DNA of 38,849 nucleotides, taken from a virus. Below the pieces are notes generated by a model that was not told the DNA's origin, searched no databases, and saw only the letters and a program-made list of their open reading frames with translations. The stretch's first letter is position 1; every line of letters starts with the position of its first letter. The stretch is from positions 1-38,849 of IMG/VR virus record IMGVR_UViG_3300008339_000161, one strand, 5' to 3'. The position numbers and the translations under genes are program-made. Shown piece after piece: positions 2,021 to 38,655 of this stretch.

Positions 2021-2049
2021 AATTTACACCAATGTGATACTTCGGTCAA
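2021..2049 (-). promoter_or_regulatory. Leftward late promoter with operator in the spacer
   Basis: On the minus strand, TTGACC (2044-2049) and TAAATT (2021-2026) are separated by 17 bases, a good sigma70 match. The spacer holds GTATCACATTGGTGTA, an operator-type site shared with many other promoters here. Transcripts would start near 2014 and meet the terminator at 1971-1996 before reaching the terminase genes, so productive transcription should need antitermination. Confidence 0.65.
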
Positions 2050-2318
2050 TCGTCGATCGTTTGCGGCAGGCGCTGCAGTCCCTGACGGGTGCAGAGCGCC
2101 AGAAAACGGATCGCCGCCTGGCACGCCTCGCGGTTGCTGGCGATGCCCCACTCCTTGCGGATGTACAGGATCGATGCCGACACGTCAGCGTCAAGAGCAA
2201 GCTGCAGCTGCCGCGTGCCCCGGTTCCTGCGCACCTTCTGCTGCCGCTCGGCGTCCGTCATCGCGTGCGGCTTGCGCGAGCGGAAGCCCATCTTCTTTGG
2301 CAAGCCGTTGTCAGTCAT
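2046..2318 (-). CDS. Ribbon-helix-helix-type DNA-binding protein (predicted)
   Basis: A 90-residue basic protein. The second half reads as a ribbon-helix-helix motif: a strand (LQLALDADV), helix SASILYIRKEWG, turn IASNREA and helix CQAAIRFLALC, followed by RQGLQRL. Such proteins usually repress phage or plasmid operons. ATG at 2318 is preferred because it overlaps the stop of the upstream 31-residue gene; an alternative ATG at 2327 has no better ribosome site. It is the last gene before the late promoter, which overlaps its final codons, so it may act on that promoter. The regulatory role is inference. Confidence 0.62.
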   Translation of the reverse strand: MTDNGLPKKMGFRSRKPHAMTDAERQQKVRRNRGTRQLQLALDADVSASILYIRKEWGIASNREACQAAIRFLALCTRQGLQRLPQTIDD

Positions 2319-2406
2319 GCTCACCATCTTTCGACATCACACACAGCGACGCCAGCAGGATGCCAGCCGCCGCACCGATCAGCATTCCAACGATTAACAT
2401 TCCCAT
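2311..2406 (-). CDS. Micro membrane protein, 31 residues
   Basis: Starts ATG at 2406 with GAGG five bases upstream and ends TGA at 2311, overlapping the start of the next gene (ATGACTGA). The product is one hydrophobic helix, MLIVGMLIGAAAGILLASL, with a short polar tail KDGEHD. It has no cysteine motif. Its coupled position in a tightly packed operon and the good ribosome site argue that it is translated. Function is unknown; tiny membrane proteins are common in phage early operons. Confidence 0.55.
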   Translation of the reverse strand: MGMLIVGMLIGAAAGILLASLCVMSKDGEHD

Positions 2407-2433
2407 GATTGCCTCGCGCAAGTATGTCAATGC

Positions 2434-2634
2434 TTATGCTGCCACTCGACGATACAGCGCGTCCATGAGCTTGGCCACATCCGCTGATCGGCCCGACTGG
2501 TTGGCGTAGATGCTGTCTGTCTTGCGTTCGATGCACATCCGGCAAACCCATCTGGCGGTGTTGCGCAAGCGGCGCTTCTCTCCGGTGCTGCCGTCGCGCA
2601 TAGCCTGGCAGCTGGTGCAGAACTTTTGGCTCAT
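2434..2634 (-). CDS. Small zinc-finger-like protein
   Basis: A 66-residue basic protein with two CxxC pairs (CTSC near residue 5 and CRMC near 31), separated by a basic stretch. This is the layout of a treble-clef or zinc-ribbon module that binds nucleic acid or protein. ATG at 2634 follows GGAG eight bases upstream and overlaps the TGA of the preceding gene (ATGA). Function unknown; context is the early leftward operon. Confidence 0.68.
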   Translation of the reverse strand: MSQKFCTSCQAMRDGSTGEKRRLRNTARWVCRMCIERKTDSIYANQSGRSADVAKLMDALYRRVAA

Positions 2635-3194
2635 GTGTTTTTCTCCTTCAAGCTCACGCAAGTACCGCACAGTGCGCCATCGTCAGGCACGATACCGTCA
2701 CCGCATGAGCAATAGACGCGCTGTGGCGGGGCGGTGCGTAGTTTGTCAATCCATTCTCTAGCTTCAGCGTCAAGTCTTTCCTGCGCTATTTCGTTAAAGC
2801 AGATGTACTGCTGCCAAAAGTCGGCGCAGTCATTCATCCACGCCACCGGCTCCGGTTCAGGTTGTGCAATACGCGCTGGTGTGACGTTCTTCAACGCCCA
2901 GTCAAGCCACTTAACGGGCGACATATCGTAATACCCATCAGGGCCGACCGTAGAAAGCTCTTCACCTAATCGCATGGCTACGCTTTTCCATGCTGTGTTT
3001 GTCCATACGCTGGGGCCAAGCTGCGCTACTGACGCACCCGTGCTGTAGATATGCGTCACGCCCGATGGAGTCATCTTTAAGTCCCATCGCGAAAGTCTGG
3101 TGCGTAGCGCCTTCATCACATCAGCGCGATCGGTGGCGCGCCCCGATTCAAAAGCGTCGAGTGCCTGCTCAAGCAGGTCGCGATCAGTCGTCAT
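2631..3194 (-). CDS. Phage early protein with C-terminal cysteine cluster, function unknown
   Basis: A 187-residue protein with an N-terminal helical part (DLLEQALDAFESGRATDRADVMKALRTRL in outline), a central PEPEPVAWM segment, and a C-terminal CSCGDG...CGTC cluster that probably binds zinc. The PVAWM pattern recalls the Ea22 or DUF551-associated early proteins of lambdoid phages, but the match is short. ATG at 3194 overlaps the stop of the upstream gene, and its own stop overlaps the next start. No enzymatic motif seen. Confidence 0.7.
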   Translation of the reverse strand: MTTDRDLLEQALDAFESGRATDRADVMKALRTRLSRWDLKMTPSGVTHIYSTGASVAQLGPSVWTNTAWKSVAMRLGEELSTVGPDGYYDMSPVKWLDWALKNVTPARIAQPEPEPVAWMNDCADFWQQYICFNEIAQERLDAEAREWIDKLRTAPPQRVYCSCGDGIVPDDGALCGTCVSLKEKNT

Positions 3195-3354
3195 CTTTCA
3201 CCTCCCAGATCACTGTCGATCCCGGTGGCATTAACGCATCAGGATTGCATTCGCATGGCATGCCTGCGCCATCGCAGAAGATGCAGTTGTGAGCTTCTTT
3301 GTTCGGATGGTTCTCGCACACCCACAGCGTGCCGTTGCAGTTGGGGCAGGTCAT
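3184..3354 (-). CDS. Small cysteine-rich zinc-binding protein
   Basis: 56 residues starting MTCPNC at 3354 behind GGAAG. It carries CPNC, then C..H, then CIFCDGAG and PCEC, eight cysteines or histidines in a DnaJ-type zinc-finger-like spacing (CxxCxG...). Such stand-alone fingers occur in phage early operons with unknown roles. The frame upstream to 3411 lacks a ribosome site and is not used. It overlaps the next gene by 11 bases. Confidence 0.68.
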   Translation of the reverse strand: MTCPNCNGTLWVCENHPNKEAHNCIFCDGAGMPCECNPDALMPPGSTVIWEVKDDD

Positions 3355-3557
3355 GATCTTCCTTCGGTCATTTTTTTCTTGATGCTCGCGGGGATCTTCG
3401 GCTTCGGACACCAGCCGAGACAGTCGTCGCTCCAGTTACCAATGATCAGCACGCCGCCAGGATTCAAGAGCAGCACGCTGGCATTGCGTGGTGGTGGATC
3501 GATGTCAGGATCACGGAACCACAGTGCGTCGGTGGTCGGGTGTAAAGGGTCGCTCAT
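3351..3557 (-). CDS. Conserved small phage protein (68 residues)
   Basis: Soluble protein with pattern ALWFRDPDIDPPPRNASVLLL then NPGGVLIIGNW and a PKIPASIKKKM ending. I recognise this layout (WxRDPxxDPPPxG..LLVLNPGGV...W) from other phage early regions, related in style to DUF551, but function is not assigned. ATG at 3557 overlaps the TGA of the preceding micro-gene, so translation is coupled. Confidence 0.72.
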   Translation of the reverse strand: MSDPLHPTTDALWFRDPDIDPPPRNASVLLLNPGGVLIIGNWSDDCLGWCPKPKIPASIKKKMTEGRS

Positions 3558-3655
3558 TCGTCCCCCATCATCAGCGTGATCCAGATCGCCATGCCGATTA
3601 GCAGCACCAGGCCGCCGGCTGCGATTAGTACGACGCCAAGAAACATAAGGGTCAT
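3554..3655 (-). CDS. Micro membrane protein, 33 residues
   Basis: ATG at 3655 has GGAG eight bases upstream, and TGA at 3554 overlaps the next start. The product is almost entirely one membrane helix (MFLGVVLIAAGGLVLLIGMAIW...) ending in GDE. It also overlaps the stop of the upstream gene (ATGA). Good ribosome site and coupling on both sides support expression. Function unknown; a holin-like or membrane regulator role cannot be judged from sequence. Confidence 0.6.
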   Translation of the reverse strand: MTLMFLGVVLIAAGGLVLLIGMAIWITLMMGDE

Positions 3656-3963
3656 GCTTGCATCTCCTTCATCAGGTATCGCAGCTCCACGGTCTGCGCT
3701 GCTTCGCGCAGCTTCGATACGTTGGTCTTCTTCATCACCTCAATCGCAATTGCAATGAACGTCTCGATCTCAGCGCGCTCTTCATCGCCCCAGCCGATCA
3801 AGCCTGCAATGGCAGACTGCATGCGCTCGTCTTTCAGCTTTGCCGCTCGCTCGACCAGGTACTCGAGATCCTCACGCGGGATGGCTGAGCGTTGCTGCAG
3901 CAGATCCGTCATGCGAGCGGCCTGCTCGGCAACGAAGTCAGCGTCGGGTCGTATGCGTCGCAT
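3652..3963 (-). CDS. Helical phage protein, function unknown
   Basis: A 103-residue, mostly helical acidic-basic protein (DADFVAEQAARMTDLLQQR near the start, then KLKDERMQSAIAGLIGWGDEE). No catalytic or metal-binding motif is visible. AAGG stands six bases before the ATG at 3963. It couples to the downstream micro membrane gene through an ATGA overlap. Belongs to the early leftward operon. Confidence 0.7.
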   Translation of the reverse strand: MRRIRPDADFVAEQAARMTDLLQQRSAIPREDLEYLVERAAKLKDERMQSAIAGLIGWGDEERAEIETFIAIAIEVMKKTNVSKLREAAQTVELRYLMKEMQA

Positions 3964-3972
3964 CGTTAGCCT

Positions 3973-4167
3973 TCACAGACGGTGTTTGTTTCTGTTCTTC
4001 CGGCACCACTCGCGGTGCTCGGTGCTGAAGTCCGGGCTGATCTCAACGAGCTGGCAAGAAGGCTTGTTCGGAACTTTGTCGAGCTGCGTTGCGAAGTACA
4101 GCGACCAACACGCGACTGCGGCCATGTACACGTACAGCAGCAGCTCTGTCGTCTTAATCTCTTTCAT
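3973..4167 (-). CDS. Single-pass membrane protein, 64 residues
   Basis: A short N-terminus (MKEIKTTE) precedes a membrane helix, LLLYVYMAAVACWSLYFA (about residues 9-26), and a polar tail with two cysteines and many basic residues. GGGGAG lies just upstream of ATG 4167. The likely topology is N-in with the tail in the periplasm, or a signal-anchor. No known family recognised. Confidence 0.62.
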   Translation of the reverse strand: MKEIKTTELLLYVYMAAVACWSLYFATQLDKVPNKPSCQLVEISPDFSTEHREWCRKNRNKHRL

Positions 4168-4177
4168 TGACTCCCCT

Positions 4178-4387
4178 TCATTCCGGTTTGCCCGTCATCA
4201 AGTCCACGAGCGCCGCATACGCAGCTTTGCTCTGCTCGTGCGTCTTGGCGCGCACCACGTCGTAGCCCAGCACGTACGCACGCGCCAGCCTTCTCAGCAG
4301 TGCTGCAGCCTCAACGTCGCCCTCGTCACGCGCACGGTCCAGCAACATGTCAGCCAACTGCTCGGCCTTTCGCTCAATCGAATGCAT
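4178..4387 (-). CDS. Small helical early protein
   Basis: 69 residues, predicted all helix (RKAEQLADMLLDRARDEGD..., then LLRRLARAYVLG). No motif of known function. A strong GGAGGAG site precedes ATG 4387. It is the first gene after the consensus-like promoter at 4414-4442, so it and the genes to its left can be transcribed separately from the rusA/Q-like genes upstream. Confidence 0.7.
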   Translation of the reverse strand: MHSIERKAEQLADMLLDRARDEGDVEAAALLRRLARAYVLGYDVVRAKTHEQSKAAYAALVDLMTGKPE

Positions 4388-4413
4388 GTCTCCTCCTTTT
4401 TTTGTGCTTTGGA

Positions 4414-4442
4414 ATTATAAGCTTTGTGATACTTCTAGCCAA
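4414..4442 (-). promoter_or_regulatory. Leftward promoter with operator in the spacer
   Basis: Minus strand TTGGCT (4437-4442), 17 bases, TATAAT (4414-4419): a consensus -10. The spacer carries GTATCACAAAGC, the common operator half-site. The -35 overlaps the stop codon of the Q-like gene. It should drive the small genes from 4387 leftward and be silenced by the phage repressor. Confidence 0.75.
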
Positions 4443-4782
4443 GGGTTTTGTCGACAAAGTCCGCGACCATCTGCACCGCCTCGACCAGCAGTCGCTCGTC
4501 GTCCTCGCCGGCCGGCAACGTCTTGCGTGACCATGGCCTGAAGTGCCGGGACAGGACGCGGTAGTGCTCCGCATGCTTGGTGTGCAGGTGCTCGACGGCC
4601 GCGGCCACCGCCTGGATCTCGGCGCTTGAGTAGCCGAACACATCGACCTCGGTGCTGATCTCGAGCAGGCCGCGGAAGGTCGGCGACACCGACGGCAGGC
4701 CAAGCCTCTGCTCAGCGTCGTGCCAGTCCGATCGCGCCCAGCCGTGCAGCAGCTCGGCAGCCCATGGCGGGTTCAGCTTCAC
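4435..4782 (-). CDS. Candidate Q-like late antiterminator
   Basis: A 115-residue protein: PPWAAELLHGWAR at the start, LGLPSVSPTFRGLL near 27-40, then a helical region with YSSAEIQAVAAAVEHLHTKH and RVLSRHFRPW. This order (WGRW-like start, YPSxSPxFR, then a helical, sigma-region-4-like part) resembles phage Q antiterminators of the PF06530 type. The match is by eye and moderate. Context supports it: lambda-like phages place Q at the end of the early operon before the late promoter, and here both late promoters have promoter-proximal terminators. Alternative: another small helical regulator. A profile search against PF06530 would decide. Confidence 0.48.
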   Translation of the reverse strand: MKLNPPWAAELLHGWARSDWHDAEQRLGLPSVSPTFRGLLEISTEVDVFGYSSAEIQAVAAAVEHLHTKHAEHYRVLSRHFRPWSRKTLPAGEDDERLLVEAVQMVADFVDKTLG

Positions 4783-5027
4783 ACACGCTCCAGCCTGCAG
4801 CCTTCCAGCTCGGTCCGCTTGACCTCGACCACGGTCCGCGTGTACGGCCAGCCTCGGCTGTCCACAAACACCACGCGCACGCGGTCGTCGCTCTGCCGCA
4901 TTGATCGCGCTGCCTTGCCGATCGCCAAGTTGGCAAGCTTGCAGCGGCCAGTGACTGTCTCCCAGGTCTTCGCGCCGTACGGCCGCACCTGGCCGATGAA
5001 ATAGCCGCTTATCTTTTTGAAAATCAT
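4779..5027 (-). CDS. Small beta-rich phage protein, unknown function
   Basis: 82 residues, basic, predicted mainly beta (RVRVVFVDSRGWPYTRTVVEVKRTELEGCRL in outline). No recognisable active site. ATG at 5027 overlaps the stop of rusA, and its own stop overlaps the start of the Q-like gene (ATGA), so the three genes are coupled. Function unknown. Confidence 0.7.
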   Translation of the reverse strand: MIFKKISGYFIGQVRPYGAKTWETVTGRCKLANLAIGKAARSMRQSDDRVRVVFVDSRGWPYTRTVVEVKRTELEGCRLERV

Positions 5028-5440
5028 CGTGTCCCCTCCTCGCTGACCTCGACCATCACCCGGCCGCCCTTCACCGGCTCGACCACCTCAAACCCGACGC
5101 GCCACTTGCTGTCGTCCACGCCCATCGCATCAGCCAGGCCATCGAGGCCGGCCTTCATGGACGCGAGCATGTTGTCCCAGTCCCTGGCCCGTTTGTCCGG
5201 CGGGAAGAACATCAGATCGACGCGTACGGCGTTTTCTGACCCCCGGAGGTATCCAAGCCCCGCCAGCTCGCCGATCGCCCTGCAGCGGGCGCGATAGACC
5301 CTTTTGAGCTTGCTCGTCACCGCCCAGTGCTCGCGCGCGTTCGGCGACAGACGCCGATCAGGCCAAGGAATTTCCAGCAGGAAACTTCTTTTGTGACAAG
5401 TCACATTATTAATTTTTTCTATCACTTTGCTGATCTCCAT
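5024..5440 (-). CDS. rusA: RusA-type Holliday junction resolvase
   Basis: RusA-family endonucleases cut Holliday and branched junctions formed in recombination and replication. The signature is clear: IPWPDRRLSPNAREHW near residue 24, then RARDWDNMLASMKAGLDGL and GVDDSKW, giving the conserved acidic residues of the family in usual spacing. The length (138) is normal. The ATG at 5440 lacks a ribosome site, whereas GGAG stands nine bases before an in-frame GTG at 5425, so the true start may be 5425. Three operator-like sites lie across its first codons and upstream (5392-5459). Confidence 0.88.
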   Translation of the reverse strand: MEISKVIEKINNVTCHKRSFLLEIPWPDRRLSPNAREHWAVTSKLKRVYRARCRAIGELAGLGYLRGSENAVRVDLMFFPPDKRARDWDNMLASMKAGLDGLADAMGVDDSKWRVGFEVVEPVKGGRVMVEVSEEGTR

Positions 5441-5460
5441 TAATCATTGTGATAGTTCTG
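5390..5460 (-). promoter_or_regulatory. Cluster of three operator-like sites at the rusA start
   Basis: Plus-strand TGTGACAAGTCACA (about 5393-5406, near-perfect dyad), TATCACTTTGCTGAT (5420-5434) and ATTGTGATAG (5446-5455) fit the operator consensus found at promoters elsewhere. A weak minus-strand promoter (TTGCGC, 17 bases, AACTAT) would overlap the last site. Repressor bound here would cover the start of rusA. Confidence 0.5.
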
Positions 5461-5514
5461 CGGTGCGGCTTTTGGCGCAAACCGGGTGGACTTTTTGTGA
5501 AGTTTTTCTGGCCT

Positions 5515-5728
5515 GTCCGCCACCCATCCGCCTCTATCCGCCACCCCTAAAGGGTGTGGCGGATTGGCGGATAGCGCCCGCCAAAGATCCGCCAACTTAT
5601 CCGCCAACTGCCACCACCTCAAAACCCGCATAAACACTGGCTTTTTTCGATGTCGCTGGCTTATCCGCCAGCTATCCGCCAAACATCCGCCAGTTGCCAA
5701 TTTGATACGTCCGCCAAGCTATCCGCCA
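5515..5728. repeat. Iteron array, probable replication origin
   Basis: Thirteen copies of a 7-9 base element, best form TATCCGCCA, lie in 214 bases. Starts: 5515, 5526, 5535, 5557 (inverted), 5565 (inverted), 5577, 5587, 5598, 5662, 5673, 5685, 5709 and 5720. Eleven are on one strand. A T-rich patch and a small GCCTA/TAGGC hairpin follow at 5729-5750. The array fills the 305-base gap between rusA and the primase-helicase gene, with no reading frame of its own. Clustered direct repeats beside a replication gene are typical of iteron origins in plasmids and some phages; function here is inferred. Confidence 0.72.
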
Positions 5729-5745
5729 ACACTTTTGCCTATTTT

Positions 5746-7782
5746 TTAGGCAGATAAATCACTCGAATTCATGGCCAGAAAACCGGTCATGGACAGGTGA
5801 TCTATTGCACTTTCGGAAAGATCCCAGCCGCCCTTGCCGCCGCTTGCGAGACCCTGATCCTTCATCGTTTTCATGATTCTGGAGATCGTCCGCTCGCTGC
5901 AACCGAGCGCGATCGCCATCGGCGGGACGCCCGGCCAGCGCGGATGCATGGCCTTGGCCACGTCCAAAGCGGTCAGATCCGTGCCGTTGGTCCGCTTGCC
6001 GACCACGAAGTCCATGGGGTTCCCGTCGACCTCGATGTAGGCGCCCATGATCTCGACATCGCATTCGTCGTTGATCCCAAGGCCGGTCTGGACGATCTTG
6101 AATCGCCGCTTGGCCGGCATCTCGGCGTCTTTCATTTTGGTAACTTGCATCTCGATCTGGCCCATCGATCCCTTGACCCAGATCTCCTGGTCCATGGCGC
6201 CTTTGAATGCGGAAGATCCCCGCGCACGGTCCATGTCATGGCCTGAGTGGTGGACGGTCATGACGTTGCACTTCCACCGCCGGCGGATGTACTCGTCCAG
6301 GTGCTCGATGAACATGTTCGCGTCCTGCTGCTTGTTCTCGTCCCCGTCGCCGAAGTTCCTGGCCAGCGTGTCGACGATCACCAGCGACGGTGCGTGCCCG
6401 GTCTGCGCGGCCAGCCGCTCGACTTCCAGCGACAGGCCTGCTGCCGCGTCAGCGTTCAGGATCATGACCGCCCGGTTGGACTTGAAGAGCGGAACGTCCT
6501 TGGACAGCTTCACGCCGCGCGCTTTCTGCCAGGCTGCGAATCGGCGTGCGAGACCGTTGTGGCCTTCGCCGGCGATGTAAAACACCGCTCCCTGCTTAAC
6601 AGGCATCCCGTGCCAGGGTGTGCCGGTGGCAACACAGCAGGCGATGTCGACCACGGTGAAGGACTTGCCCCCGCCGGAGGGTCCAAAGACCATCGACAGG
6701 GCGTCCGTCTCGAGGTAGTTCTCGACCAGCCACTGGATGGGTTTTAAGTCGTTCAGCAGCTCGTCGACCTGCGTGAACAACGGCCGGTCTGGCTCTTGTG
6801 CCTGGATCTCGCCGGTCTCTGGATCGACGAACTGCAGTGCCGGGCGTGGCGGTGGCTTGTATTTCTCCTCAGCGCCGCGCACGCAGCGAGGGATGTCTTT
6901 GTATCGGCTCTCCCAGCGATCGTCTTTGGCGCCTGGATAGGCGTTCATGAGGCCGCGCAGCATGTTCGTGACCGCCGCTGGGTGGGCGCCGGTTGAGATC
7001 ATCGATGCGGCAATGATGTTCAGTGGCTCATGAAATGAGCCTGCCATGACGGCCTGCACGGCTGCCTGCAGTTTCTCGTCCTGCGTTGTGCCGAACGAAG
7101 TCGGCATCGGAATTGAGAGGTTTGCTGCGGCCACCGATGCATTGCGCACCGAGTCCAGATCCATGCCGACCGACGCGCATGCGTCTTCCAGTGTCAGCCG
7201 GATCTCCGGGCGCCAGACCAGCAGGCGATGCTTGAAGTGCCCCGTCACCCGCGGCTTCTGGTTCGTCCCCTGCGGCAGGCGAACGTATCGAACAGAATTG
7301 TTGCCGGAGATGTCGCCGCCAATGAAGCCGCGCATGGTCATGGACTTCACGACCGCCGAGCACAGGTCTTCGTTGGCGCAATCTGGATCGTCGCCGTCTA
7401 AGAAGTAGCCAGCCTGGGTCTTGCCGGGTGATGTCTCGAGCACCCACGAGGGTGGTGAGAAGAGGCTTTCGAGGTCCACGTCGTCGACCACCAGCGCCAG
7501 CATGCGAACGAAGGTGGACTTTCGCCGGTAGAAGTAGCCGTCCTGTGCCTTGCCGACTGCAGCAACGCTGAAGTAGGTATTGAACTCTCCCCAGCTGTCG
7601 CACATTGACCGCTCGTGGTCGGCCGGCGTGTAGACCACGCCCTTCCACTTTGCGTCATCGCTGTTCGGGTTCCCGTGGAAGCGGTTGACCCACAGGCACG
7701 CGCCTTCTGGCGCACCCTGCGCCAGCTCGGCCAGGAAATCGGTGTTGGAAACTACAGCATTGTGATTCTCTTGTGTGCTCAT
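5746..7782 (-). CDS. Replication primase-helicase (PrimPol plus RepA-type hexameric helicase)
   Basis: A 678-residue replication enzyme. The N-terminal half has a primase-polymerase layout: LALVVDDVD (about 95-103, metal-binding acidic pair), ETSPGKTQAGYFL, and NNSVRYVRLPQGTNQK. The C-terminal half is a RecA-fold helicase of the RSF1010 RepA type: Walker A GPSGGGKS (367-374), Walker B LVIVDT (467-472) and TVHHSGHD (509-516). The last 65 residues hold a winged-helix-like segment (GCSERTISRIMKTMKDQG) that may bind DNA. Start 7782 follows GGGGAGGG; the frame continues to 7872 without support. An operator-like site lies in codons 5-9. It sits between cro and the iterons, as O/P do in lambda. Confidence 0.85.
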   Translation of the reverse strand: MSTQENHNAVVSNTDFLAELAQGAPEGACLWVNRFHGNPNSDDAKWKGVVYTPADHERSMCDSWGEFNTYFSVAAVGKAQDGYFYRRKSTFVRMLALVVDDVDLESLFSPPSWVLETSPGKTQAGYFLDGDDPDCANEDLCSAVVKSMTMRGFIGGDISGNNSVRYVRLPQGTNQKPRVTGHFKHRLLVWRPEIRLTLEDACASVGMDLDSVRNASVAAANLSIPMPTSFGTTQDEKLQAAVQAVMAGSFHEPLNIIAASMISTGAHPAAVTNMLRGLMNAYPGAKDDRWESRYKDIPRCVRGAEEKYKPPPRPALQFVDPETGEIQAQEPDRPLFTQVDELLNDLKPIQWLVENYLETDALSMVFGPSGGGKSFTVVDIACCVATGTPWHGMPVKQGAVFYIAGEGHNGLARRFAAWQKARGVKLSKDVPLFKSNRAVMILNADAAAGLSLEVERLAAQTGHAPSLVIVDTLARNFGDGDENKQQDANMFIEHLDEYIRRRWKCNVMTVHHSGHDMDRARGSSAFKGAMDQEIWVKGSMGQIEMQVTKMKDAEMPAKRRFKIVQTGLGINDECDVEIMGAYIEVDGNPMDFVVGKRTNGTDLTALDVAKAMHPRWPGVPPMAIALGCSERTISRIMKTMKDQGLASGGKGGWDLSESAIDHLSMTGFLAMNSSDLSA

Positions 7783-7954
7783 CACGAAATTGCCCTCCCC
7801 TGCACTGCCGTGAGCGGGAAGGAAGGTGTGTGAGCGATGATTGTTTTGACTGCCACTGATGAACCCCCTCAATGCTTGAACCTGGAAAAAGAAAGCCGAA
7901 CGGCAGGCGGCGGTTCAGTCCGCTTTTCGGGAGCTACCCTAGCCGTGGCTCAAA

Positions 7955-7984
7955 ACTTAACCATTGTGATATTCAGCTGCTCAA
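7955..7984 (-). promoter_or_regulatory. Leftward promoter for the replication gene, with operator
   Basis: Minus strand TTGAGC (7979-7984), 18 bases, TTAAGT (7955-7960); the -10 is imperfect. The spacer contains AATATCACAATGG, a close match to the operator consensus. Transcripts would start near 7948 and have a leader of about 165 bases before ATG 7782. The gap 7783-8035 otherwise contains only this and the promoter at 8015-8042. Confidence 0.5.
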
Positions 7985-8014
7985 TTTAGGTGCCAAATCC
8001 ACCATAACGAGCAC

Positions 8015-8042
8015 TTGCACAAAACTTCACAGCTGTTATGCT
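8015..8042 (+). promoter_or_regulatory. Rightward promoter antisense to cro, reading toward cI
   Basis: Plus strand TTGCAC (8015-8020), 16 bases, TATGCT (8037-8042). The spacer holds CTTCACAGCTGTTATG, similar to the operator-bearing spacers at 10742 and 11744. It would read through cro antisense and then into cI at 8320, which is the position and direction of a lambda pRE-type establishment promoter. Confidence 0.5.
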
Positions 8043-8227
8043 CTGCGCCTCAGAATCTCAGGTGATGCCTTGAGTTTGCCCTTGGTGATGTGCTCGAGCC
8101 GCAGCTGCTGCAAGTGGGGAATCTTCCCCCGAGTTCGCCACATGGAGATGGTCGGCTGCTGCACGCCGAGTGCCTGGGCGACAGCGACTTGCGATCCGAA
8201 GAACTTGATGACTTGGTCTATTTTCAT
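8036..8227 (-). CDS. cro: Cro-type repressor
   Basis: A 63-residue helix-turn-helix protein: IDQVIKFFGSQVAVAQALGVQQPTISMWRTRGKIP, with the recognition helix around QQPTISMWR, followed by a KASPEILRRRA tail. Size, motif and position divergent from the larger repressor fit Cro. Cro would compete with CI for operators and favour lytic growth. No Shine-Dalgarno is visible before ATG 8227, so expression may be weak or the start may lie close to the transcript end. Replication genes follow on the same strand, as in lambda. Confidence 0.83.
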   Translation of the reverse strand: MKIDQVIKFFGSQVAVAQALGVQQPTISMWRTRGKIPHLQQLRLEHITKGKLKASPEILRRRA

Positions 8228-8244
8228 GATGTGAATTATTGAGT

Positions 8245-8310
8245 TTGCAGGTACTTGCTCTAACAGTATAACTCTTGTGATGGCGGAAAGGGAAGCCCCC
8301 TTTTTCCGCC
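8245..8310. promoter_or_regulatory. cI/cro divergent control region with operator and leader hairpin
   Basis: Rightward: TTGCAG (8245-8250), 16 bases, TATAAC (8267-8272), toward cI. Leftward: TATACT (minus strand, 8265-8270) with a poor -35 near 8289, toward cro. The two -10 boxes overlap. TATAACTCTTGTGATGG (8267-8283) is an operator-type site covering both, and ATGATGTGAAT (8227-8237) may be a second. A hairpin with a GGCGGAAA/TTTCCGCC stem (8282-8310) lies in the cI leader. Confidence 0.6.
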
Positions 8311-8319
8311 TCTATTCCA

Positions 8320-8718: not shown

Positions 8719-8770
8719 TTATCCTTGGCACTTCAGTAGTTGCCTCTACTTATTTACCCTTGAAAACTTC

Positions 8771-8800
8771 TTGCAAGTAACTTCACAATGGTGATATATT
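8771..8800 (+). promoter_or_regulatory. Rightward early promoter with operator
   Basis: TTGCAA (8771-8776), 18 bases, TATATT (8795-8800). CTTCACAATGGTGATAT (8781-8797) is the best-formed operator dyad (TTCAC/GTGATA). The transcript leader has two hairpins (GTGATC/GATCAC and TTCCGG/CCGGAA) before the GGAG of the first gene. It should drive the recombination operon and be shut off in lysogens. The 145-base gap after cI holds nothing else I can see. Confidence 0.72.
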
Positions 8801-8863
8801 GTCTCCGTGATCTCAACGATCACAGCTTTTCCGGGGCGACCGGAACGAGTCAAGGAGACCAAC

Positions 8864-9079: not shown

Positions 9080-9089
9080 GGAGACCGCC

Positions 9090-9366: not shown

Positions 9367-9375
9367 GAGACCGAC

Positions 9376-10564: not shown

Positions 10565-10743
10565 ACAATCGCAAATGGCCACGAACATTGAACGAAGCTT
10601 TTCCAAACACCATTGAGTACAGCTGCGCAATCGAACGCCCCAGGCCAAGAAACTGGATTTCTTGGAATCGATTGATTGTCTGGTTTATTGTTGGCGGCCT
10701 TATCACAATGCTAATCCGAAATATCGTTTTACCCCTTGCATAA
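10561..10743 (+). CDS. Small membrane-anchored phage protein
   Basis: 60 residues. N-terminal KWPRTLNEAFPNTIEYSCAIERP is a conserved-looking segment found in many betaproteobacterial phages; it is followed by a membrane helix, LIVWFIVGGLITMLIRNIVLPL (about 38-59). ATG 10561 overlaps the previous stop (ATGA). The end of the gene contains an operator-type site (10701-10710) and the -35 of the next promoter. Function unknown. Confidence 0.72.
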   Translation: MNNRKWPRTLNEAFPNTIEYSCAIERPRPRNWISWNRLIVWFIVGGLITMLIRNIVLPLA

Positions 10744-10763
10744 CTTCACGCTTGTGATATTAT
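10688..10763 (+). promoter_or_regulatory. Tandem operator-promoters before the 10830 gene
   Basis: Main promoter: TTGCAT (10736-10741), 16 bases, TATTAT (10758-10763), with CTTCACGCTTGTGATAT in the spacer. Upstream, within the preceding gene, TATCACAATG (10701-10710) sits between TTGTTG (10688-10693) and TAATCC (10712-10717), a weaker promoter match. The leader (10770-10808) has an eight-base-pair hairpin GTGGTCAA/TTGACCAC and a second CCTGG/CCAGG hairpin, repeating the design of the 8771 promoter. Confidence 0.68.
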
Positions 10764-11135: not shown

Positions 11136-11149
11136 CCGGAGGTATCACA

Positions 11150-11467
11150 ATGGCTATTTCCACCATCCCCTTTGCCCATGTCCGCGAGTTCTACGAACGC
11201 AACCAGCCCGACGGGCATTGGTTTGACGCGGCCACCATGCGCTTCTTTAAAACCAAGCTGCCTCAGATTGCTTACGAGTCTGAGGCCGGCATCCACTTTG
11301 TCACACGCGAAACAGACCCAGGCGGCGTGTCGGCCTACAGCGTGCGCCGCCAGCTGCCGAACGGTGAGATCAAGACTGTCGGCGAGTTTCACAGCTACAA
11401 GACGCGCGCCGCCGCTGCGACTGCCATTCGCCTGTTGAGCAAGGAGGCCAGCCATGTGGTGGTCTGA
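11150..11467 (+). CDS. Conserved phage protein (DUF7447-like)
   Basis: 105 residues: FDAATMRFFKTKLPQIAYESEAGIHFVTRE, then YSVRRQLPNGEIKTVGEFHSYKTRAAAATAIRLL. The F.TM.FF.....A.......FV.SE....G...Y.VR pattern is that of a small phage family I associate with DUF7447; function unknown. ATG 11150 lies inside a TATCACAATG operator-like site that also abuts the GGAGG ribosome site. Confidence 0.7.
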   Translation: MAISTIPFAHVREFYERNQPDGHWFDAATMRFFKTKLPQIAYESEAGIHFVTRETDPGGVSAYSVRRQLPNGEIKTVGEFHSYKTRAAAATAIRLLSKEASHVVV

Positions 11468-11741: not shown

Positions 11742-11765
11742 CGGACTTCACAATGCTGATATACT
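11738..11765 (+). promoter_or_regulatory. Rightward promoter with operator, before the Sak4 module
   Basis: TTGACG (11738-11743), 16 bases, TATACT (11760-11765), a strong sigma70 match. The spacer is GACTTCACAATGCTGA, the operator dyad. It overlaps the last codons of the upstream gene and would start the recombination module at 11808. Confidence 0.75.
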
Positions 11766-12191: not shown

Positions 12192-12218
12192 TTTCTTTTC
12201 ACACTCGGAGACATCACA

Positions 12219-12905
12219 ATGGCTATATCCCTCAAGTCCACCAAGGACGCCGCCCTTGACGGCATCAAGGTTCTCGTTCACGGCCCTGCCGGCGCTGGCA
12301 AGACCAGCCTGTGCGCGACCACCGGCGAACCGACCATCATCATCAGCGCCGAGTCCGGCTTGCTGTCGCTGCGTGGCGTCGACATCCCGGTCATCGAAGT
12401 CAAGACGCTCGAGCAAATGTACGAGGCGTACGACTTCGTCGTCAACGATCCGCAGGGTCAGGCCTTCAAGTGGGTCTGCTTGGACTCCATCAGCGAGATC
12501 GCTGAGGTGGTGCTGAACCACGAGAAGAAAGTCGCCAAGGATCCGCGCCAGGCGTACGGCGCGCTGGCCGAGAAGATGACGGATCTGATCCGTGCCTTCC
12601 GCGACCTGCCTGGCCGCAACGTGTACTTCAGCTGCAAGCAGGAGCGCACGAAGGACGAGCAGTCAGGCGCGATGCTCTATTACCCGGCCATGCCCGGCAA
12701 CATGTTGAAGCAGGGCGTCGGCTACTTCTTCGATGAAGTCATGGCACTGCGCGTTGAAAAGGATGCCGACGGCAATCCCACGCGCTGGCTGCAGACCAGC
12801 CGGGATTTCAATTACGAGGCGAAGGACCGGTCCGGTTGCTTGGACATGTTCGAACCTCCAAACCTCGCGGACATCGCCGCGAAGATTTCTTCCACCGCCA
12901 ATTAA
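12219..12905 (+). CDS. Sak4-type RecA-like ATPase (phage recombinase)
   Basis: 228 residues. Single-domain RecA-fold ATPase with Walker A HGPAGAGKTS (21-30) and Walker B KWVCLDS (84-90), then CKQERTKDEQSGAMLYYPAMPG and a FDEVMALR segment, which is the pattern of Sak4-like phage proteins (AAA_24). Sak4 works as a single-strand annealing or strand-exchange protein with a partner SSB. The following gene is the DUF669 type that usually accompanies it. ATG 12219 lies within an ATCACAATG operator-like site behind GGAG. Confidence 0.85.
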   Translation: MAISLKSTKDAALDGIKVLVHGPAGAGKTSLCATTGEPTIIISAESGLLSLRGVDIPVIEVKTLEQMYEAYDFVVNDPQGQAFKWVCLDSISEIAEVVLNHEKKVAKDPRQAYGALAEKMTDLIRAFRDLPGRNVYFSCKQERTKDEQSGAMLYYPAMPGNMLKQGVGYFFDEVMALRVEKDADGNPTRWLQTSRDFNYEAKDRSGCLDMFEPPNLADIAAKISSTAN

Positions 12906-17616: not shown

Positions 17617-17659
17617 TTGCAGGGGGTGATGCCGGGCCGTACAATCACATTGCTGATAG
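17617..17659 (+). promoter_or_regulatory. xis-int promoter with operator at the start site
   Basis: TTGCAG (17617-17622), 17 bases, TACAAT (17640-17645). AATCACATTGCTGATAG (17643-17659), an operator dyad, overlaps the -10 and start point rather than the spacer. Repressor bound here should shut off excisionase and integrase in lysogens. Confidence 0.68.
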
Positions 17660-17675
17660 TTCGCAGGGGAGCACA

Positions 17676-19194: not shown

Positions 19195-19223
19195 TTGTCC
19201 CTGAAGTATCACAATGCTATTGA
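19195..19223 (+). promoter_or_regulatory. Rightward promoter with operator, after attP
   Basis: TTGTCC (19195-19200), 17 bases, TATTGA (19218-19223). The spacer holds AAGTATCACAATGC, a full operator half-site. Drives the 19237-21192 operon. In the prophage this promoter would lie at the end opposite int and remain under repressor control. Confidence 0.58.
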
Positions 19224-19236
19224 AATGGAGACTCCT

Positions 19237-33354: not shown

Positions 33355-33791
33355 GATGCACCTCTTACGTATGTGAGATTTAGCGACTCGCGTGAGAACC
33401 CGACCCGTTTAAAGAATCGAACAAGCCTCGGATCAACACCAGGCTCAAGCTCAATGATTGCCAGCTTGATGGCTGGACGACTCTTTACCCAACGAACAAA
33501 CTCCCGCAGCAATGGCAAGCCAGCACCCGGTACACGGCTGTAGTAAAGCAGCACGGAGCACTGCATCCGTTCAAACCAGAATGCTGGCTGTACACACGCC
33601 CCCATTGCCGCCACCACCTTGCCCGCATCTTCAGCAACCCACACAAAGTGCGCCGGCCCCAAGCACGTCTTAGCCGTCTCTGCCATCGCTTCTCGGTCAA
33701 TGCGCACCGGCAGCGGGTCTTTCGACACCGACTCAACGGCGATGTCAACGATGGCTGGAATGTCGCTCATGGTTGCTTTTCTAAAGATCAT
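33351..33791 (-). CDS. GNAT N-acetyltransferase in the virion cluster
   Basis: 146 residues from ATG 33791, which overlaps the stop of the preceding gene (ATGA); the frame to 33839 is not needed. MIFRKATMSDIPAIVDIA, HFVWVAEDAGKVVAAMG, LLLREFVRWVKSRPAIKLAIIELEPG and a C-terminal FFKRVGFSRES follow GNAT strand-helix order; the usual R/Q-x-x-G-x-G/A loop is replaced by SRVPGAGLPL. Some podophages carry GNATs in the tail/internal cluster; target unknown. It may modify a virion or host protein. Confidence 0.78.
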   Translation of the reverse strand: MIFRKATMSDIPAIVDIAVESVSKDPLPVRIDREAMAETAKTCLGPAHFVWVAEDAGKVVAAMGACVQPAFWFERMQCSVLLYYSRVPGAGLPLLREFVRWVKSRPAIKLAIIELEPGVDPRLVRFFKRVGFSRESLNLTYVRGAS

Positions 33792-35266
33792 GCAGTCGGT
33801 AAACCTGGAATGGTTGTTCCGTAAAACTTGTTCGCCCACGCAATCTGCGAGTTCGCGTAATTAATCACGCTTTGAATTGCACGGCTCTTGGGGCTTGATC
33901 CAGCCGGAGCCGTTCCATCAACCTTTCCACTCAAGTTCGGATCAGCACCAATCGTGTTAATGCTGGCAGCCGTTGTGTTACTGATCTGCAAAGCAAAGTT
34001 CGCCGGAATCTGCGAGTTGGTCAGGTTTTTCTGGAAAGCTTGCGCATCGTCTTGCAAGAAGATTTGCTGCTGACGATCCAGTCCTGCCTGCGCAGCAGTG
34101 AACGACTGCTGCATCTGAGTGATCGCAACCTGATGCGCTTGCTGATCGTTCTGCATCTTCTCCTGCTGAACACGATCCAAGCTCGACTGAGAAGCGGCAA
34201 AGTCGTTCTGCGCTTTCTGCAAAGCCATCTGGTTGGCCGCGCTCTTGTCTTGCAAGAACGCCTGCTGCGCGCGCTCGAGGGCAGACTGCGAAGCAGAAAA
34301 ATCCTGCTGGAATTTTGTGAGGTCTTTCTGCAGCACTGCTTGACGCTCAACCAATGTGGTTTGCTGCGTACGGTCAAGAGCCGACTGAGCTGCATTAAAG
34401 TCGTTCTGCGCCTTCTGGAGCGCCATCTGATTTGCTGCGCTCTTGTCCTGCAAAAATGCTTGTTGAGCACGATCCAATGCAGACTGAGCGGCAGTAAAGT
34501 TTTGCTGACTGGTCTGCAGGTTGGTCTGCAGACTACGATCCAACGAAGATTGCCCGGCTTGGAACGTCTGCTGCTCGCGCTGCAAGGAGGTCTGCTGCGT
34601 ACGATCCAGCGCACTCTGCGCAGCCGCAAAGTTCTGTTGAGCCACTTGCAAAGCTTGTTGAGCTTCAATGCTCTTGTCTGCCAATGCAGTCTGCTGCGCA
34701 CGGTCAAGCTGTGCCTGAGCAGCCGTAAAGTTCTGCTTGACGTTTTCCAGAGTCGAAGTGAACGACTGCGACCCCAGACGCTCAGATGTCGTGAACTGAC
34801 GATTGATGTTGGATTGACCGGCCTCAAACTCTTGAGCACCTTTCTGCAAGCCAAACTGGTTGATGGCACCAGCGCCAAACTCGTTGGCGCGATTTGTCGC
34901 ACCCATGTTTTCAGATGCCGTCACCGCATAGGTCTGCGCATCCTGCTGCGCCATCGGCAGCGCACGGTCAACCATGGCGGCCACGCCTGCGCCCTGATTC
35001 ATGGAGCTGTTGACCAGACCCCGCTGCGCCATGCCTTGTGTGGCCAGCGTTCTGGCGCGCTGCATAAGCGGGCTGTCTTTTGACAGGATGCTGTTGACCT
35101 GCCCTTGTACCGTCTCAGTCTGGGCGTTGACTTGGCGCGTCTGTGGATCGTAAGTTGCGACACTGTTAGACGGCGGCAGCGCCGAAGCTACCAAGCCAGT
35201 CGTTGTGTTCGGATTGGTCGCAGACTTCTGCTGGGTGTCAAAGGGGTTTTGAACAGTCGTAGCCAT
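33788..35266 (-). CDS. Repeat virion protein with 11-residue periodicity
   Basis: 492 residues. Residues about 170-415 are a repeat region with LDRxQQ-type motifs whose leucines fall at 187, 220, 242, 264, 297, 330, 363 and 396, all separated by multiples of 11 (33 or 22). Residues 266-290 and 332-356 are identical although the DNA differs at third codon positions. No prolines occur in the block, so a very long straight helix is likely. The N-terminus (QNPFDTQQKS...) and C-terminus (...YANSQIAWANKFYGTTIPGLP) are non-repetitive. Probably an internal virion or ejection protein. Start 35266 follows GGAG. Confidence 0.8.
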   Translation of the reverse strand: MATTVQNPFDTQQKSATNPNTTTGLVASALPPSNSVATYDPQTRQVNAQTETVQGQVNSILSKDSPLMQRARTLATQGMAQRGLVNSSMNQGAGVAAMVDRALPMAQQDAQTYAVTASENMGATNRANEFGAGAINQFGLQKGAQEFEAGQSNINRQFTTSERLGSQSFTSTLENVKQNFTAAQAQLDRAQQTALADKSIEAQQALQVAQQNFAAAQSALDRTQQTSLQREQQTFQAGQSSLDRSLQTNLQTSQQNFTAAQSALDRAQQAFLQDKSAANQMALQKAQNDFNAAQSALDRTQQTTLVERQAVLQKDLTKFQQDFSASQSALERAQQAFLQDKSAANQMALQKAQNDFAASQSSLDRVQQEKMQNDQQAHQVAITQMQQSFTAAQAGLDRQQQIFLQDDAQAFQKNLTNSQIPANFALQISNTTAASINTIGADPNLSGKVDGTAPAGSSPKSRAIQSVINYANSQIAWANKFYGTTIPGLPTA

Positions 35267-35280: not shown

Positions 35281-35307
35281 ACAGAAACGCCCCGACAAAG
35301 CGGGGCG
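35281..35307 (-). terminator. Promoter-proximal terminator before the internal virion operon
   Basis: On the minus strand CGCCCCG / CGGGGCG (35288-35294 and 35301-35307) with a six-base loop is followed by TTTCTGTTTG. A preceding hairpin (GCGGG / CCCGC, about 35311-35339) lies in the same leader. Both hairpins sit between the promoter at 35345-35374 and ATG 35266, repeating the design at 1971-2049. Confidence 0.7.
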
Positions 35308-35344
35308 AGCGCGGGCTGCGAGAAAGCGCAATAACCCGCAGTCA

Positions 35345-35374
35345 ATTCTAAACCAATGTGATACTCAATGCCAA
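35345..35374 (-). promoter_or_regulatory. Second late promoter with operator in the spacer
   Basis: Minus strand TTGGCA (35369-35374), 18 bases, TAGAAT (35345-35350). Spacer sequence GAGTATCACATTGGTT is nearly the same as in the promoter at 2021-2049. Transcripts would start near 35338, overlapping the end of Rz, and face the terminator at 35281-35307. Confidence 0.7.
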
Positions 35375-37384: not shown

Positions 37385-37974
37385 ACCGCTTCTTCCTTAC
37401 GCTTTCTTTTTAACCTGCGCCTATGCACTGCCTCTGTTTGCAATCGTGCGGTCTCCCGCCTGTGCGCCTCATCCTGCTCGACAACAATTTGCTTCCACAT
37501 CTTTTCGTACTTCGTCCACAAGTCACCCAGCTCCGGTGGCGCCTTGTAGACCATCGTCTCGCGAAGCTCTGCCAGCATTGCATCCAGCCTTGAGCGGATG
37601 ATCACGCGGTTTAAAGCGCGCTTGCTTACCGACTCACTGCCGGTGTAAATCTCCTTGGCCTGAGCCTCCTGCTCGATGAACGCTTTGCCGATCGCGTCGT
37701 AGGCGTCCATCAATGCGCCCAGGTCATTGCCGATCTGCAAGAACACATCGTTCGGATCAGACCTGCCAATCTCCTGCACCCGCTGTACTTCTTCGTTGTA
37801 CTGAATCTTCTGCGCGTTCGTCGGATTCGGGATCTTCTGAAACTGCGACTTCAAATCATCCAGTACATCCTTAACCTCGCCTGCGGCGCCCTTGATGTCC
37901 TTGTAGAGCTGACATCCTTTCTTAACTGCCGCAACAGCAGCGTTGGCAGCAGCAAGTAAGGTGAGCGGATCCAC
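37264..37974 (-). CDS. Membrane-anchored phage protein (236 residues)
   Basis: GTG 37974 start. N-terminus DPLTLLAAANAAVAAVKKGCQLYKDIKG is shared with proteins of T7-like and cyanophages that I recall but cannot name. A long helical middle, then RRRLKRKRKEEAVWVGAILFVVAWYVGVLLLV (membrane helix about 198-217, with basic residues before it). The last 40 residues overlap the next gene in another frame. Membrane anchor at the C-terminus suggests a role in lysis or entry; function unknown. Confidence 0.7.
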   Translation of the reverse strand: MDPLTLLAAANAAVAAVKKGCQLYKDIKGAAGEVKDVLDDLKSQFQKIPNPTNAQKIQYNEEVQRVQEIGRSDPNDVFLQIGNDLGALMDAYDAIGKAFIEQEAQAKEIYTGSESVSKRALNRVIIRSRLDAMLAELRETMVYKAPPELGDLWTKYEKMWKQIVVEQDEAHRRETARLQTEAVHRRRLKRKRKEEAVWVGAILFVVAWYVGVLLLVRTSHTYRGLYSSPWWSCVLC

Positions 37975-37975
37975 T

Positions 37976-38242
37976 TCACTTGTCGGCTTTCTCGTTCACC
38001 CGGTCAAACAAAAGACCAATGGCGTCCTTAACTTCTTTGAAGCCCTCCCTCATGTCAGCCTTTAGTTCGCCAACGGCTTCGCGGAAATCTTGTCGACGAA
38101 CGAAGTCTTGGTTGACCTCACGGTTCAACTCTTTGACATCTTTGCGAAGCTCTGAAATCACATCCCAGATCATCTTCAAGACCCATCCCCCTGCGGCACT
38201 TGCTACGCCAATCAATATGTTGAAAAGAATCTGTCCGTCCAT
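37976..38242 (-). CDS. Small membrane and coiled-coil protein
   Basis: 88 residues from ATG 38242 (GGGG upstream); a GTG at 38248 lies too near the ribosome site. MDGQILFNILIGVASAAGGWVLKMIWDVI is a membrane or interfacial helix, followed by a long coiled coil (ELRKDVKELNREVNQDFVRRQDFREAVGELKADMREGFKEVKDAIGLLF). Resembles small proteins near phage lysis genes. Function unknown. Confidence 0.68.
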   Translation of the reverse strand: MDGQILFNILIGVASAAGGWVLKMIWDVISELRKDVKELNREVNQDFVRRQDFREAVGELKADMREGFKEVKDAIGLLFDRVNEKADK

Positions 38243-38244
38243 GC

Positions 38245-38613
38245 TCACCCCAAGAAATGAAGCTTGTAGATCGTGGAGTCGTACAGAGCCACAATCTCAT
38301 CAATAATGTTTTGCATCTGCGTCTCCTCCTTCGGCACCGCCTTGTAACGATTGGCGACAATCCATTTGCGCTGAGACTGCAGAGCCGCCTTGATCTCACT
38401 CGGAAACTCGTTGTCCAACAGCGGGATCTGAATCAGCTCCAGCATCGCGCCCTGGTACGCCTCAGCGATCTGATCAGCCAGATCAATCACTGCCGGGTAA
38501 AAGCCGCCCAACGCCTCGTGCTTGGCAAAGCTGCCCGGTCCAGTCGCGGCGAGGTGCGCCCGGTGGGCGAGGTCTCGAGCGAGAAAAAGTACTGCGATGA
38601 ATTGGCCGATCAT
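38245..38613 (-). CDS. Dps/ferritin-like helical protein (DUF5856-like)
   Basis: 122 residues from ATG 38613 (AGGAG upstream). IAVLFLARDLAHRAHLAATGPGSFAKHEALGGFYPAVIDLADQIAEAYQG places histidines, Asp and Glu (H..H...H...D..D...E) as in Dps-like proteins and in a phage family I associate with DUF5856. The remainder is helical and ends YKLHFLG. Metal binding is predicted; function in the virion or cell is unknown. The frame upstream to 38655 is not needed. Confidence 0.68.
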   Translation of the reverse strand: MIGQFIAVLFLARDLAHRAHLAATGPGSFAKHEALGGFYPAVIDLADQIAEAYQGAMLELIQIPLLDNEFPSEIKAALQSQRKWIVANRYKAVPKEETQMQNIIDEIVALYDSTIYKLHFLG

Positions 38614-38625
38614 GGTCGCTCCTAC

Positions 38626-38655
38626 ATCATTGTGATACTTCAGGCTCGACTTCAA
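38626..38655 (-). promoter_or_regulatory. Operator site with possible promoter at the right edge
   Basis: Minus strand TTGAAG (38650-38655), 18 bases, AATGAT (38626-38631), with GAAGTATCACAATG in the spacer. The operator half-site is perfect, the -10 only fair. It overlaps the last codons of the edge gene and precedes the Dps-like gene. Confidence 0.5.

Follow-up and report, generated by a model that had tools for sequence, protein, structure and literature searches.

The DNA considered here, called the window in what follows, is the entire 38,849-nucleotide stretch (38.8 kb) of the IMG/VR record IMGVR_UViG_3300008339_000161, and belongs to an uncharacterised tailed phage. In its central region, a gene for a CI-type repressor and a gene for a Cro-type protein diverge from each other, and a short motif built on a TGTGATA/TATCACA half recurs from one end of the window to the other; this dispersed motif and the protein that may bind it are the subject of the present analysis. 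The genes for an integrase (PF00589), an excisionase-like family, CI and Cro point to a temperate phage. The window is found again, at 99.7-100% identity along its whole length, in contig G1 (IMG/VR 3300008450_000048; 56,390 bp), where position 15154 corresponds to window position 1, and whose 114-bp end repeat suggests that the map is probably circular. No close named relative of the phage was found: DNA matches to named phages span just 1-6% of a 6.8-kb query, CI and Cro reach at most 41% identity in named phages among the matches listed, and the protein encoded at 33788-35266 has no match among named phages. A genome scan with a CI profile yielded one distant match (31%), in Rhizobium cremeum.

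Related contigs were used for comparison. G2, G3, G7, G9, G12-G14 and G16-G18 are partly common with the window or with one another, at about 69-86% nucleotide identity, and the relatedness of G20-G25 lies in common proteins. G1, G2 and G3 were retrieved through CI, and G7, G9, G12-G14 and G16-G18 with a pattern of the late cassette described below, which included the motif and a GGG element, so that at least one cassette in each pattern-found contig is selected. Before the class counts, G6, a duplicate of G17, was removed, and so was the match at G1 56317, the end-repeat copy of the one at G1 41.

The motif is strongly over-represented. The window contains 12 copies of TGTGATA versus 1.46 expected, a count of 12 being reached in 0 of 100 shuffles; among 9-mers, ATCACAATG tops the over-representation ranking (8 versus 0.3), TATCACAA ranks second among the 8-mers, and in the 7-mer ranking the motif lies outside the top 15, which are all coding-type words. 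A 24-bp position weight matrix (PWM) built on 12 window sites, with leave-one-out scores of 9.9-29.9 bits for these training sites, gives 19 matches in the window at 10 bits or more versus 0.84 after shuffling. As proposed in an earlier reading of the window made from the sequence only, the genome and its relatives were scanned against shuffled controls, and an excess was seen in both. More precisely, the unchanged matrix matches 19 times in G2 (1.25 shuffled) and 8 times in G3 (0.08 shuffled) at 10 bits and, at 12 bits, 29 times in G7, 25 in G17, 14 in G9, 12 in G13, 5 in G18, 4 in G16, 4 in G14 and 3 in G12, the shuffled means for these eight contigs being 0-0.53. For G4 and G5, which were retrieved through a CI or Cro similarity of 40-42%, the 10-bit counts reveal no excess (8 versus 5.35 and 21 versus 16.3); at 8 bits, G4 has 29 matches versus 11.6 shuffled (shuffle maximum 25; reversed control 17). 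In G1, 25 matches are obtained at 10 bits, or 24 once the end-repeat copy is removed. With genes defined by a simple in-house caller, 12 of the 25 are intergenic though intergenic DNA makes up 7.3% of the genome, and so are 12 of the 19 in G2 (5.5%). Six in-gene matches, at window 15224, 26070 and 28904 and G1 5703, 8287 and 9324, probably reflect coding conservation or chance and are still included in the match totals.

The sequence-only reading had listed 21 positions as about 20 near-identical operators, mostly inside promoter spacers. Each position was scored with a matrix built without that site, and the best score per 40-position stretch of the shuffled window served as the null (99.9% = 9.4 bits). 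Fifteen positions are clear: 2031, 4421, 5446, 7754, 7961, 8781, 9349, 10744, 11143, 11746 (9.9 bits), 12212 (10.2 bits), 17643, 19206, 35352 and 38632. Two others fall below the null and are retained by conserved position, their dyads lying as in the relatives: 8024 (9.2 bits), at the 3' end of cro, and 8267 (3.9 bits), in the cro-CI gap. The last four found no support as motif sites: 5393 (2.9 bits) has another dyad architecture, TGTGAC-AA-GTCACA; 5420 has a score of 7.9 of its own, its best neighbour being the 5446 site; 10701 (3.4 bits) is an exact TATCACAATG yet intragenic; and 32187 (2.1 bits), with a dyad of 11/12, is intragenic as well. The repeated element is therefore real, but the word near-identical does not hold, two kinds of sites, palindromic and asymmetric, being present. 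Nor does the placement in promoter spacers hold throughout: a strict sigma-70 scan of window 1-20000 gives seven promoters versus 4.9 by chance, six of which overlap motif sites (five sites in all, since two promoters share one), but 5446, 9349, 11143, 19206 and 38632 score as gene-gap or start-codon sites without promoter, and the 12212 site likewise overlies a start codon.

The palindromic type reads TTCAC-N4-GTGATA or TATCAC-N4-GTGATA, reaches the -10 element of early promoters and flanks cro. The asymmetric type, TATCACAWTG, consists of the half-site TATCACAA followed by TG, with TATCACAWTGCTGTAG as its best form, and is located in short intergenic gaps, across start codons or within late promoters that lead straight into a terminator. 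Eleven non-redundant contigs together give 141 matches at 12 bits, 79 of which contain TATCACNNTG, and 78 of these 79 asymmetric sites, among which orthologous sites are not independent, are aligned with the local direction of the genes, versus a 32:30 split for the other 62. The co-directed sites occur on both strands, 43 with minus-strand and 35 with plus-strand genes, and the sole exception is the site at window 7952, where the caller placed a plus-strand open reading frame over the leader of a minus-strand primase-type gene. Eleven of the 79 are intragenic. The class consensus is TATCACAATGCTGTAGnAT for the late sites (21 sites), TATCACAATGCTnTAG for the gap sites (21 sites) and AGTATCACAATG for the start-codon sites (12 sites), 24 more asymmetric sites standing outside these classes. 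Agreement of the right half with GTGATA is limited to 1.6-2.3 of six positions in the three classes, versus 4.8 of six in five promoter sites without terminator. The other 62 matches include those in rightward early promoters, where the palindrome extends into the -10 (TTCACAATTGTGATATAAT and its variants); G7 has six of these.

The late class is defined by an intrinsic terminator within 110 nucleotides after the site, and its 21 sites come from 10 contigs. Twenty of the 21 carry a GGRnnMnKnY element 8-11 nucleotides past the core, versus none of the 21 gap sites, one of the 12 start-codon sites and one of the 24 other asymmetric sites; in G1 and G2, which were not found by pattern, it is present at 6 of 6 late sites. 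This element resembles the consensus elemental pause. A promoter score of at least 8/12 is reached at 17 of the 21, and 20 lie within 17 nucleotides of the end of the upstream gene. Among same-strand gaps of at least 60 nucleotides in five motif-bearing genomes, a terminator is present in 15 of 28 with a site versus 7 of 51 without (Fisher p 4e-4). With a pause-like element as well as an intrinsic terminator, the late promoters probably depend on a Q-like antiterminator, which would be distinct from the repressor site. In G9 (7010), G13 (10166) and G14 (5273), a site is followed by a GTAAAATAACGAAACCCC hairpin without clear T-tract, possibly a fourth kind of cassette.

Directly upstream of the first late cassette of the window lies a gene for a basic protein of 93 amino acids, with homologues at 25 viral loci, a number that includes loci of the same or duplicate phages. 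At one of these, L081, the gene runs off the contig, leaving 24 readable loci, 23 of which have a promoter (at least 9/12) and a terminator behind the gene, L075 being without terminator. The spacer of 14 of the 23 cassettes contains the motif in a loose form; the nine motif-less ones are L063, L069 and all seven of L076-L080, L082 and L083, whose promoter is TTGACG-17-TATAGT. The end of the gene extends over the conserved -35, whose conservation may therefore be partly of coding origin. An idea reached by eye, that the 93-residue protein adopts a ribbon-helix-helix fold, was dropped: the AlphaFold model is all helical (predicted local distance difference test score, pLDDT, 68; predicted template modelling score, pTM, 0.40) and matched no solved structure below E 0.001. 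Pfam and PDB sequence searches with this protein yielded nothing usable.

In the centre of the window, the CI profile matches the P22 C2 and 434 repressor structures, and no peptidase domain is detected by Pfam in CI. Homologues of CI at 58-76% were found in six other related contigs, with Cro homologues (57-77%) adjoining them, so that both occur together in G1, G2, G3, G7, G13, G16 and G17. The recognition helices read [TS]Q[AS][AS]ISN in CI and QP[TA][IVL]S[NM]W in Cro, with the common core Qxx[ILV]S[NM], and this likeness suggests that both proteins may read one half-site. The gap between cro and CI holds a single weak dyad and no tandem operators; judged by eye, this dyad (TATAAC or TATAGA, N4, GTKA) keeps its position in six of the seven contigs, and by the dyad criterion in three. 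At the 3' end of cro, the dyad reads CTTCAC-N4-GTKATA and passes in six of the seven contigs, G1 carrying CTTCACAGCTGTTATG instead.

The clade of the seven loci L076-L080, L082 and L083, represented by contigs G20, G21, G23 and G25, offers a direct comparison. TATCACWWTG is absent from these four contigs, versus 13, 10, 12, 19 and 9 copies in G1, G2, G7, G17 and G22, respectively. With the CI profile, an intact CI was found in G1, G2, G7, G13 and G17, all five of which also have asymmetric sites, and none in G20, G21 or G23; in G9, the CI region is not covered. Cro is retained at 49-54% in G20, G21 and G23, and palindromes at 12 bits in G20 (3 versus 0.2 shuffled) and G23 (2 versus 0.3). The late units made of promoter, pause-like element and terminator are also retained in the CI-less clade, without the motif, G20 and G21 each having a second motif-less cassette on the portal side; G21 further has a motif-less promoter ahead of a late gene, with no terminator detected. 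A tyrosine integrase was found in G1, G2, G7, G9 and G17 and in none of G13 and G20-G23, of which G13, G20 and G23 are partial contigs.

The asymmetric sites thus track CI, the palindromes stay with Cro and the cassettes stay with the late genes, so that the motif is most simply the site of the immunity repressor. The reading favoured here, with a probability of roughly 65%, is that the motif represents the dispersed sites of the immunity (lysogeny) repressor in two forms, CI and Cro sharing the early operators and CI adding asymmetric, L5-like stoperators. In this model, CI and Cro would bind as dimers to the palindromes that adjoin the -10 of early promoters or flank cro, and would thereby block initiation. 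CI would use the asymmetric sites in late promoters as operators keeping the prophage silent, and on the asymmetric sites in gene gaps it would act as a stoperator-like roadblock, whereas a Q-like antiterminator would serve the late promoter-terminator units independently of the repressor site. The whole looks like a dormancy system silencing the viral genome at many points rather than through one master switch. The sequence-only reading had one repressor directly controlling early, replication, integration and late promoters; one repressor-type signal is indeed present at early, replication, recombination/integration and late units, but the two classes, their direction, the promoter-less sites and the late terminators had been missed.

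Several observations weigh against this model. The asymmetric sites have lost the right half-site, and a third protein could therefore be their binder. The place of CI beside cro is covered in just G20 and G23, G21 ending inside cro and G25 being without the region, and the CI-less clade is a single lineage, representing one event of loss or gain. In G21, palindromes are no commoner by the matrix than after shuffling (1 versus 1.4). The dyads of the cro-CI gap reach 2-8 bits, short of the 9.4-bit null, and are missing from G3; the Qxx[ILV]S core is widespread among helix-turn-helix (HTH) repressors. Finally, G22, close to G17 (83.8% over 44.5 kb), retains its sites (17 versus 1.2 shuffled) though its CI is a 21-residue remnant. 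This remnant consists of the first residues (41181-41303), in a 59-kb contig without integrase match; G22 looks like a temperate phage recently turned virulent, as described for D29. Regarding decay of sites after loss of CI, 12 of 19 G17 sites could be aligned with G22, seven being kept and five changed, numbers too small to judge.

Other explanations bear on the same data. The late promoters of lambdoid Q and of Pseudomonas aeruginosa AlpA combine an element in the spacer, an early pause and an intrinsic terminator downstream (PMC6606751, PMC7969949, PMC9371919), a layout that the present cassettes resemble with their spacer motif, their pause-like element (20/21) and their close terminator, so that the motif might be the loading site of an antiterminator of this type, which would bind between -35 and -10, board the paused polymerase and pass the downstream terminator. 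This explanation is not the leading one, given the motif-less cassettes of the CI-less clade: unlike in Q/AlpA promoters, there are several units per genome and the spacer motif appears dispensable in relatives, 9 of the 23 promoter-terminator loci behind the 93-residue gene lacking it, including all seven of the CI-less clade. As that clade keeps its cassettes without the motif, the motif is probably not their essential loading element. The gap and start-codon sites moreover have no promoter, and no Q or AlpA homologue was seen in the part of the window proteins that was scanned (best 25 of 36 and 25 of 27 families), and we consider such a loading role quite improbable.

The missing second half-site and the position of the 93-residue gene directly upstream of the first late cassette would also fit a third phage DNA-binding protein, for instance this basic protein, binding the asymmetric sites and leaving the palindromes alone to CI and Cro; yet the protein is present in the clade that has no asymmetric sites, and the half-site TATCACAA is identical in both site types, which makes this unlikely. 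It would be very surprising if the sites belonged to a host regulator or were translation-start signals. The TGTGA/TCACA halves do resemble those of CRP sites, but the order and spacing of the halves are unlike CRP, and syntenic relatives, which may have other hosts, are without the asymmetric site; 12 of the 79 asymmetric sites overlap a start codon, but the gap and late sites lie away from start codons.

For the repressor model, the closest comparison is with phage L5, already drawn in the sequence-only reading and rightly so. L5 and Cluster A phages have 20-30 dispersed, asymmetric sites in promoters and short gene gaps, oriented with transcription, and a monomeric repressor of 183 residues with two domains (HTH and Stoperator domain) and no Cro analog (PMC9283540, PMC6550527). 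In the same line, the present phage has about 20 or more dispersed predicted repressor sites (24 in G1 at 10 bits), its asymmetric ones, placed in promoters and in short gaps between genes, being often promoter-less and co-directed with transcription (78/79). Unlike in L5, the repressor is a 132-residue P22 C2/434-type protein with HTH_3 only, accompanied by a Cro gene and extra palindromic operators. By their distribution, the present sites may thus work like L5 stoperators; by the type of repressor, they would not be members of that group.

The earlier contrast with lambda's single switch was also correct, yet the wiring is not new in kind, L5, P1 C1 and SPbeta MrpR providing precedents. P1 is not known to have late cassettes of the present kind. 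Its repressor C1 alone serves 22 dispersed asymmetric operators with an unrelated 17-bp consensus, no direction rule being stated in the accessible part of the source (PMC8546580). In SPbeta, MrpR, a repressor with a recombinase fold, binds the repeated SPBRE in several promoter regions (PMC10516654), which resembles the present phage in having one repressor and a repeated element, and differs in that the sites are described there in promoter regions only. Resemblance to the lambda/P22 switch lies in the divergent ci and cro genes with a candidate dyad between them, the P22_Cro-family Cro and the promoter antisense to cro facing ci; unlike in that switch, one weak dyad replaces the tandem operators, and the sites continue genome-wide. 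Dispersed, intergenic, directional repeats of unknown role are described in T1, Stevie and TLS (T1 and Stevie being lytic), and repeats tentatively called stoperators, whose direction is not consistently that of the genes, in the Nostoc phages A-1/N-1 (PMC4319613, PMC11447400, PMC4916379); like the present sites, the T1-like and Nostoc repeats are dispersed and intergenic, and their authors liken them to stoperators. The accessible parts of the stoperator literature yielded no description of this phage group or of a CI-Cro pair with stoperators. Dispersed repressor sites are thus already known, and their pairing with a lambda/P22-type CI-Cro and repeated Q-like late cassettes appears to be what is new. 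A fuller version, put forward tentatively and with more doubt than conviction, would have a lambda/P22-type CI-Cro pair in charge of a stoperator system, in which a short HTH repressor would block initiation as a dimer on palindromes and stop elongation on a directional half-site plus TG, and repeated PR'-tR'-type late cassettes would be served by a new antiterminator, possibly the 93-residue protein.

Features of the window discussed in the text (window positions; PWM scores in bits, LOO, leave-one-out; terminator energies in kcal/mol; site functions are predicted)
Feature	Position	Strand	Remarks
Intrinsic terminator, cassette 1	1972..1997	-	G1 17125-17150; -14.3
Asymmetric site, late promoter TTGACC(2049)-17-TAAATT(2021), cassette 1, ahead of terminase genes	2020..2043	-
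Basic 93-residue protein, directly upstream of cassette 1	2046..2327	-	position alone makes it a candidate late regulator
Site in leftward promoter TTGGCT(4442)-17-TATAAT(4414)	4412..4435	-	PWM 25.0 LOO; strict promoter
Asymmetric gene-gap site	5435..5458	-	G1 20588; no promoter
Asymmetric-type variant AATCACAATGCTGTAG, just inside start of 5746-7782 gene	7748..7771	-	PWM 24.1
Top-scoring site, upstream of primase/helicase-type gene	7952..7975	-	PWM 29.9 LOO
Dyad in rightward promoter TTGCAC(8015)-16-TATGCT(8042), antisense to cro, facing CI	8025..8040	.	PWM 9.2
Cro-type gene, 63 residues	8036..8227	-	Pfam P22_Cro 4.9e-17, also YdaS_toxin 3.5e-9
Weak dyad TATAAC-N4-GTGATG, cro-CI gap	8267..8282	.	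PWM 3.9
CI-type repressor gene, 132 residues	8320..8718	+	Pfam HTH_3 3.2e-10; short C-terminal part
Palindromic operator, early promoter TTGCAA(8771)-18-TATATT(8800)	8777..8800	+	PWM 25.7 LOO; strict promoter
Asymmetric gene-gap site right behind stop codon	9345..9368	+	G1 24498
Palindromic operator, promoter TTGCAT(10736)-16-TATTAT(10763)	10740..10763	+	PWM 17.2 LOO
Asymmetric site over Shine-Dalgarno and start codon of 11150 gene	11139..11162	+	G1 26292
Palindromic operator, promoter TTGACG(11738)-16-TATACT(11765)	11742..11765	+	PWM 9.9 LOO; strict promoter
Site variant CATCACAATG over start of 12219 gene	12208..12231	+	PWM 10.2
Imperfect palindrome over -10, upstream of excisionase-like and integrase genes	17639..17662	+	PWM 19.2 LOO
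Asymmetric gene-gap site before 19237 gene	19203..19226	+	G1 34356
Intrinsic terminator, cassette before 33788-35266 gene	35288..35307	-	G1 50441-50460; -13.2
Asymmetric site, late promoter TTGGCA-18-TAGAAT, cassette before 33788-35266 gene	35344..35367	-
Asymmetric gene-gap site before 38245-38613 gene	38618..38641	-	G1 53771

Some of these sites have counterparts or neighbours of their own. The variant at 7748 corresponds to a similar match at G22 40598, and, as at 12208, matches in G2, G3 and G13 overlie the starts of genes beginning MAI, those of G3 and G13 being orthologues of the 12219 gene, for which G2 gave no tblastn match. The promoter at the 17639 site was read by eye as TTGCAG (17617-17622) and TACAAT (17640-17645). 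A CCACGGCTAGGGTAGCTCCCG leader follows the site ahead of the left operon in the window (about 7928-7950), in G2 (49229) and in G13 (13735). Between the cassette-1 terminator and the terminase genes, TACGGCCCCCGGC (window about 1948-1970), also present in several relatives, is a possible cos site, and iteron-like repeated TATCCGCCA words (6 versus 0.07 expected) at about 5505-5745, downstream of the primase-type gene, may mark a replication origin. Directly behind the integrase gene, a stretch resembling by eye a tRNA 3' end (about 19064-19091) is a possible attP, ARAGORN finding no tRNA. The rightward genes of 8864-21192 include, by PHROGs, a Sak4-like annealing protein, a single-strand DNA binding protein and a MazG-like pyrophosphatase, as well as a match at 7e-83 to a family labelled ferredoxin. 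A single open reading frame of 3243 residues (21217-30948) fills a quarter of the window.

Judging by titles, the stoperator literature is mostly concerned with actinobacterial phages, and elsewhere among phages such sites have just been suggested for the T1-like and Nostoc phages. If the proposed model is true, the present phages would provide a second, apparently unrelated system, meaning that a whole genome can come to be silenced through directional sites by an ordinary HTH repressor. They would also allow one to ask how a repressor site halts RNA polymerase in one direction only. In this context, nature would supply a control in the clade without CI, and a new antiterminator could be sought at the repeated late cassettes.

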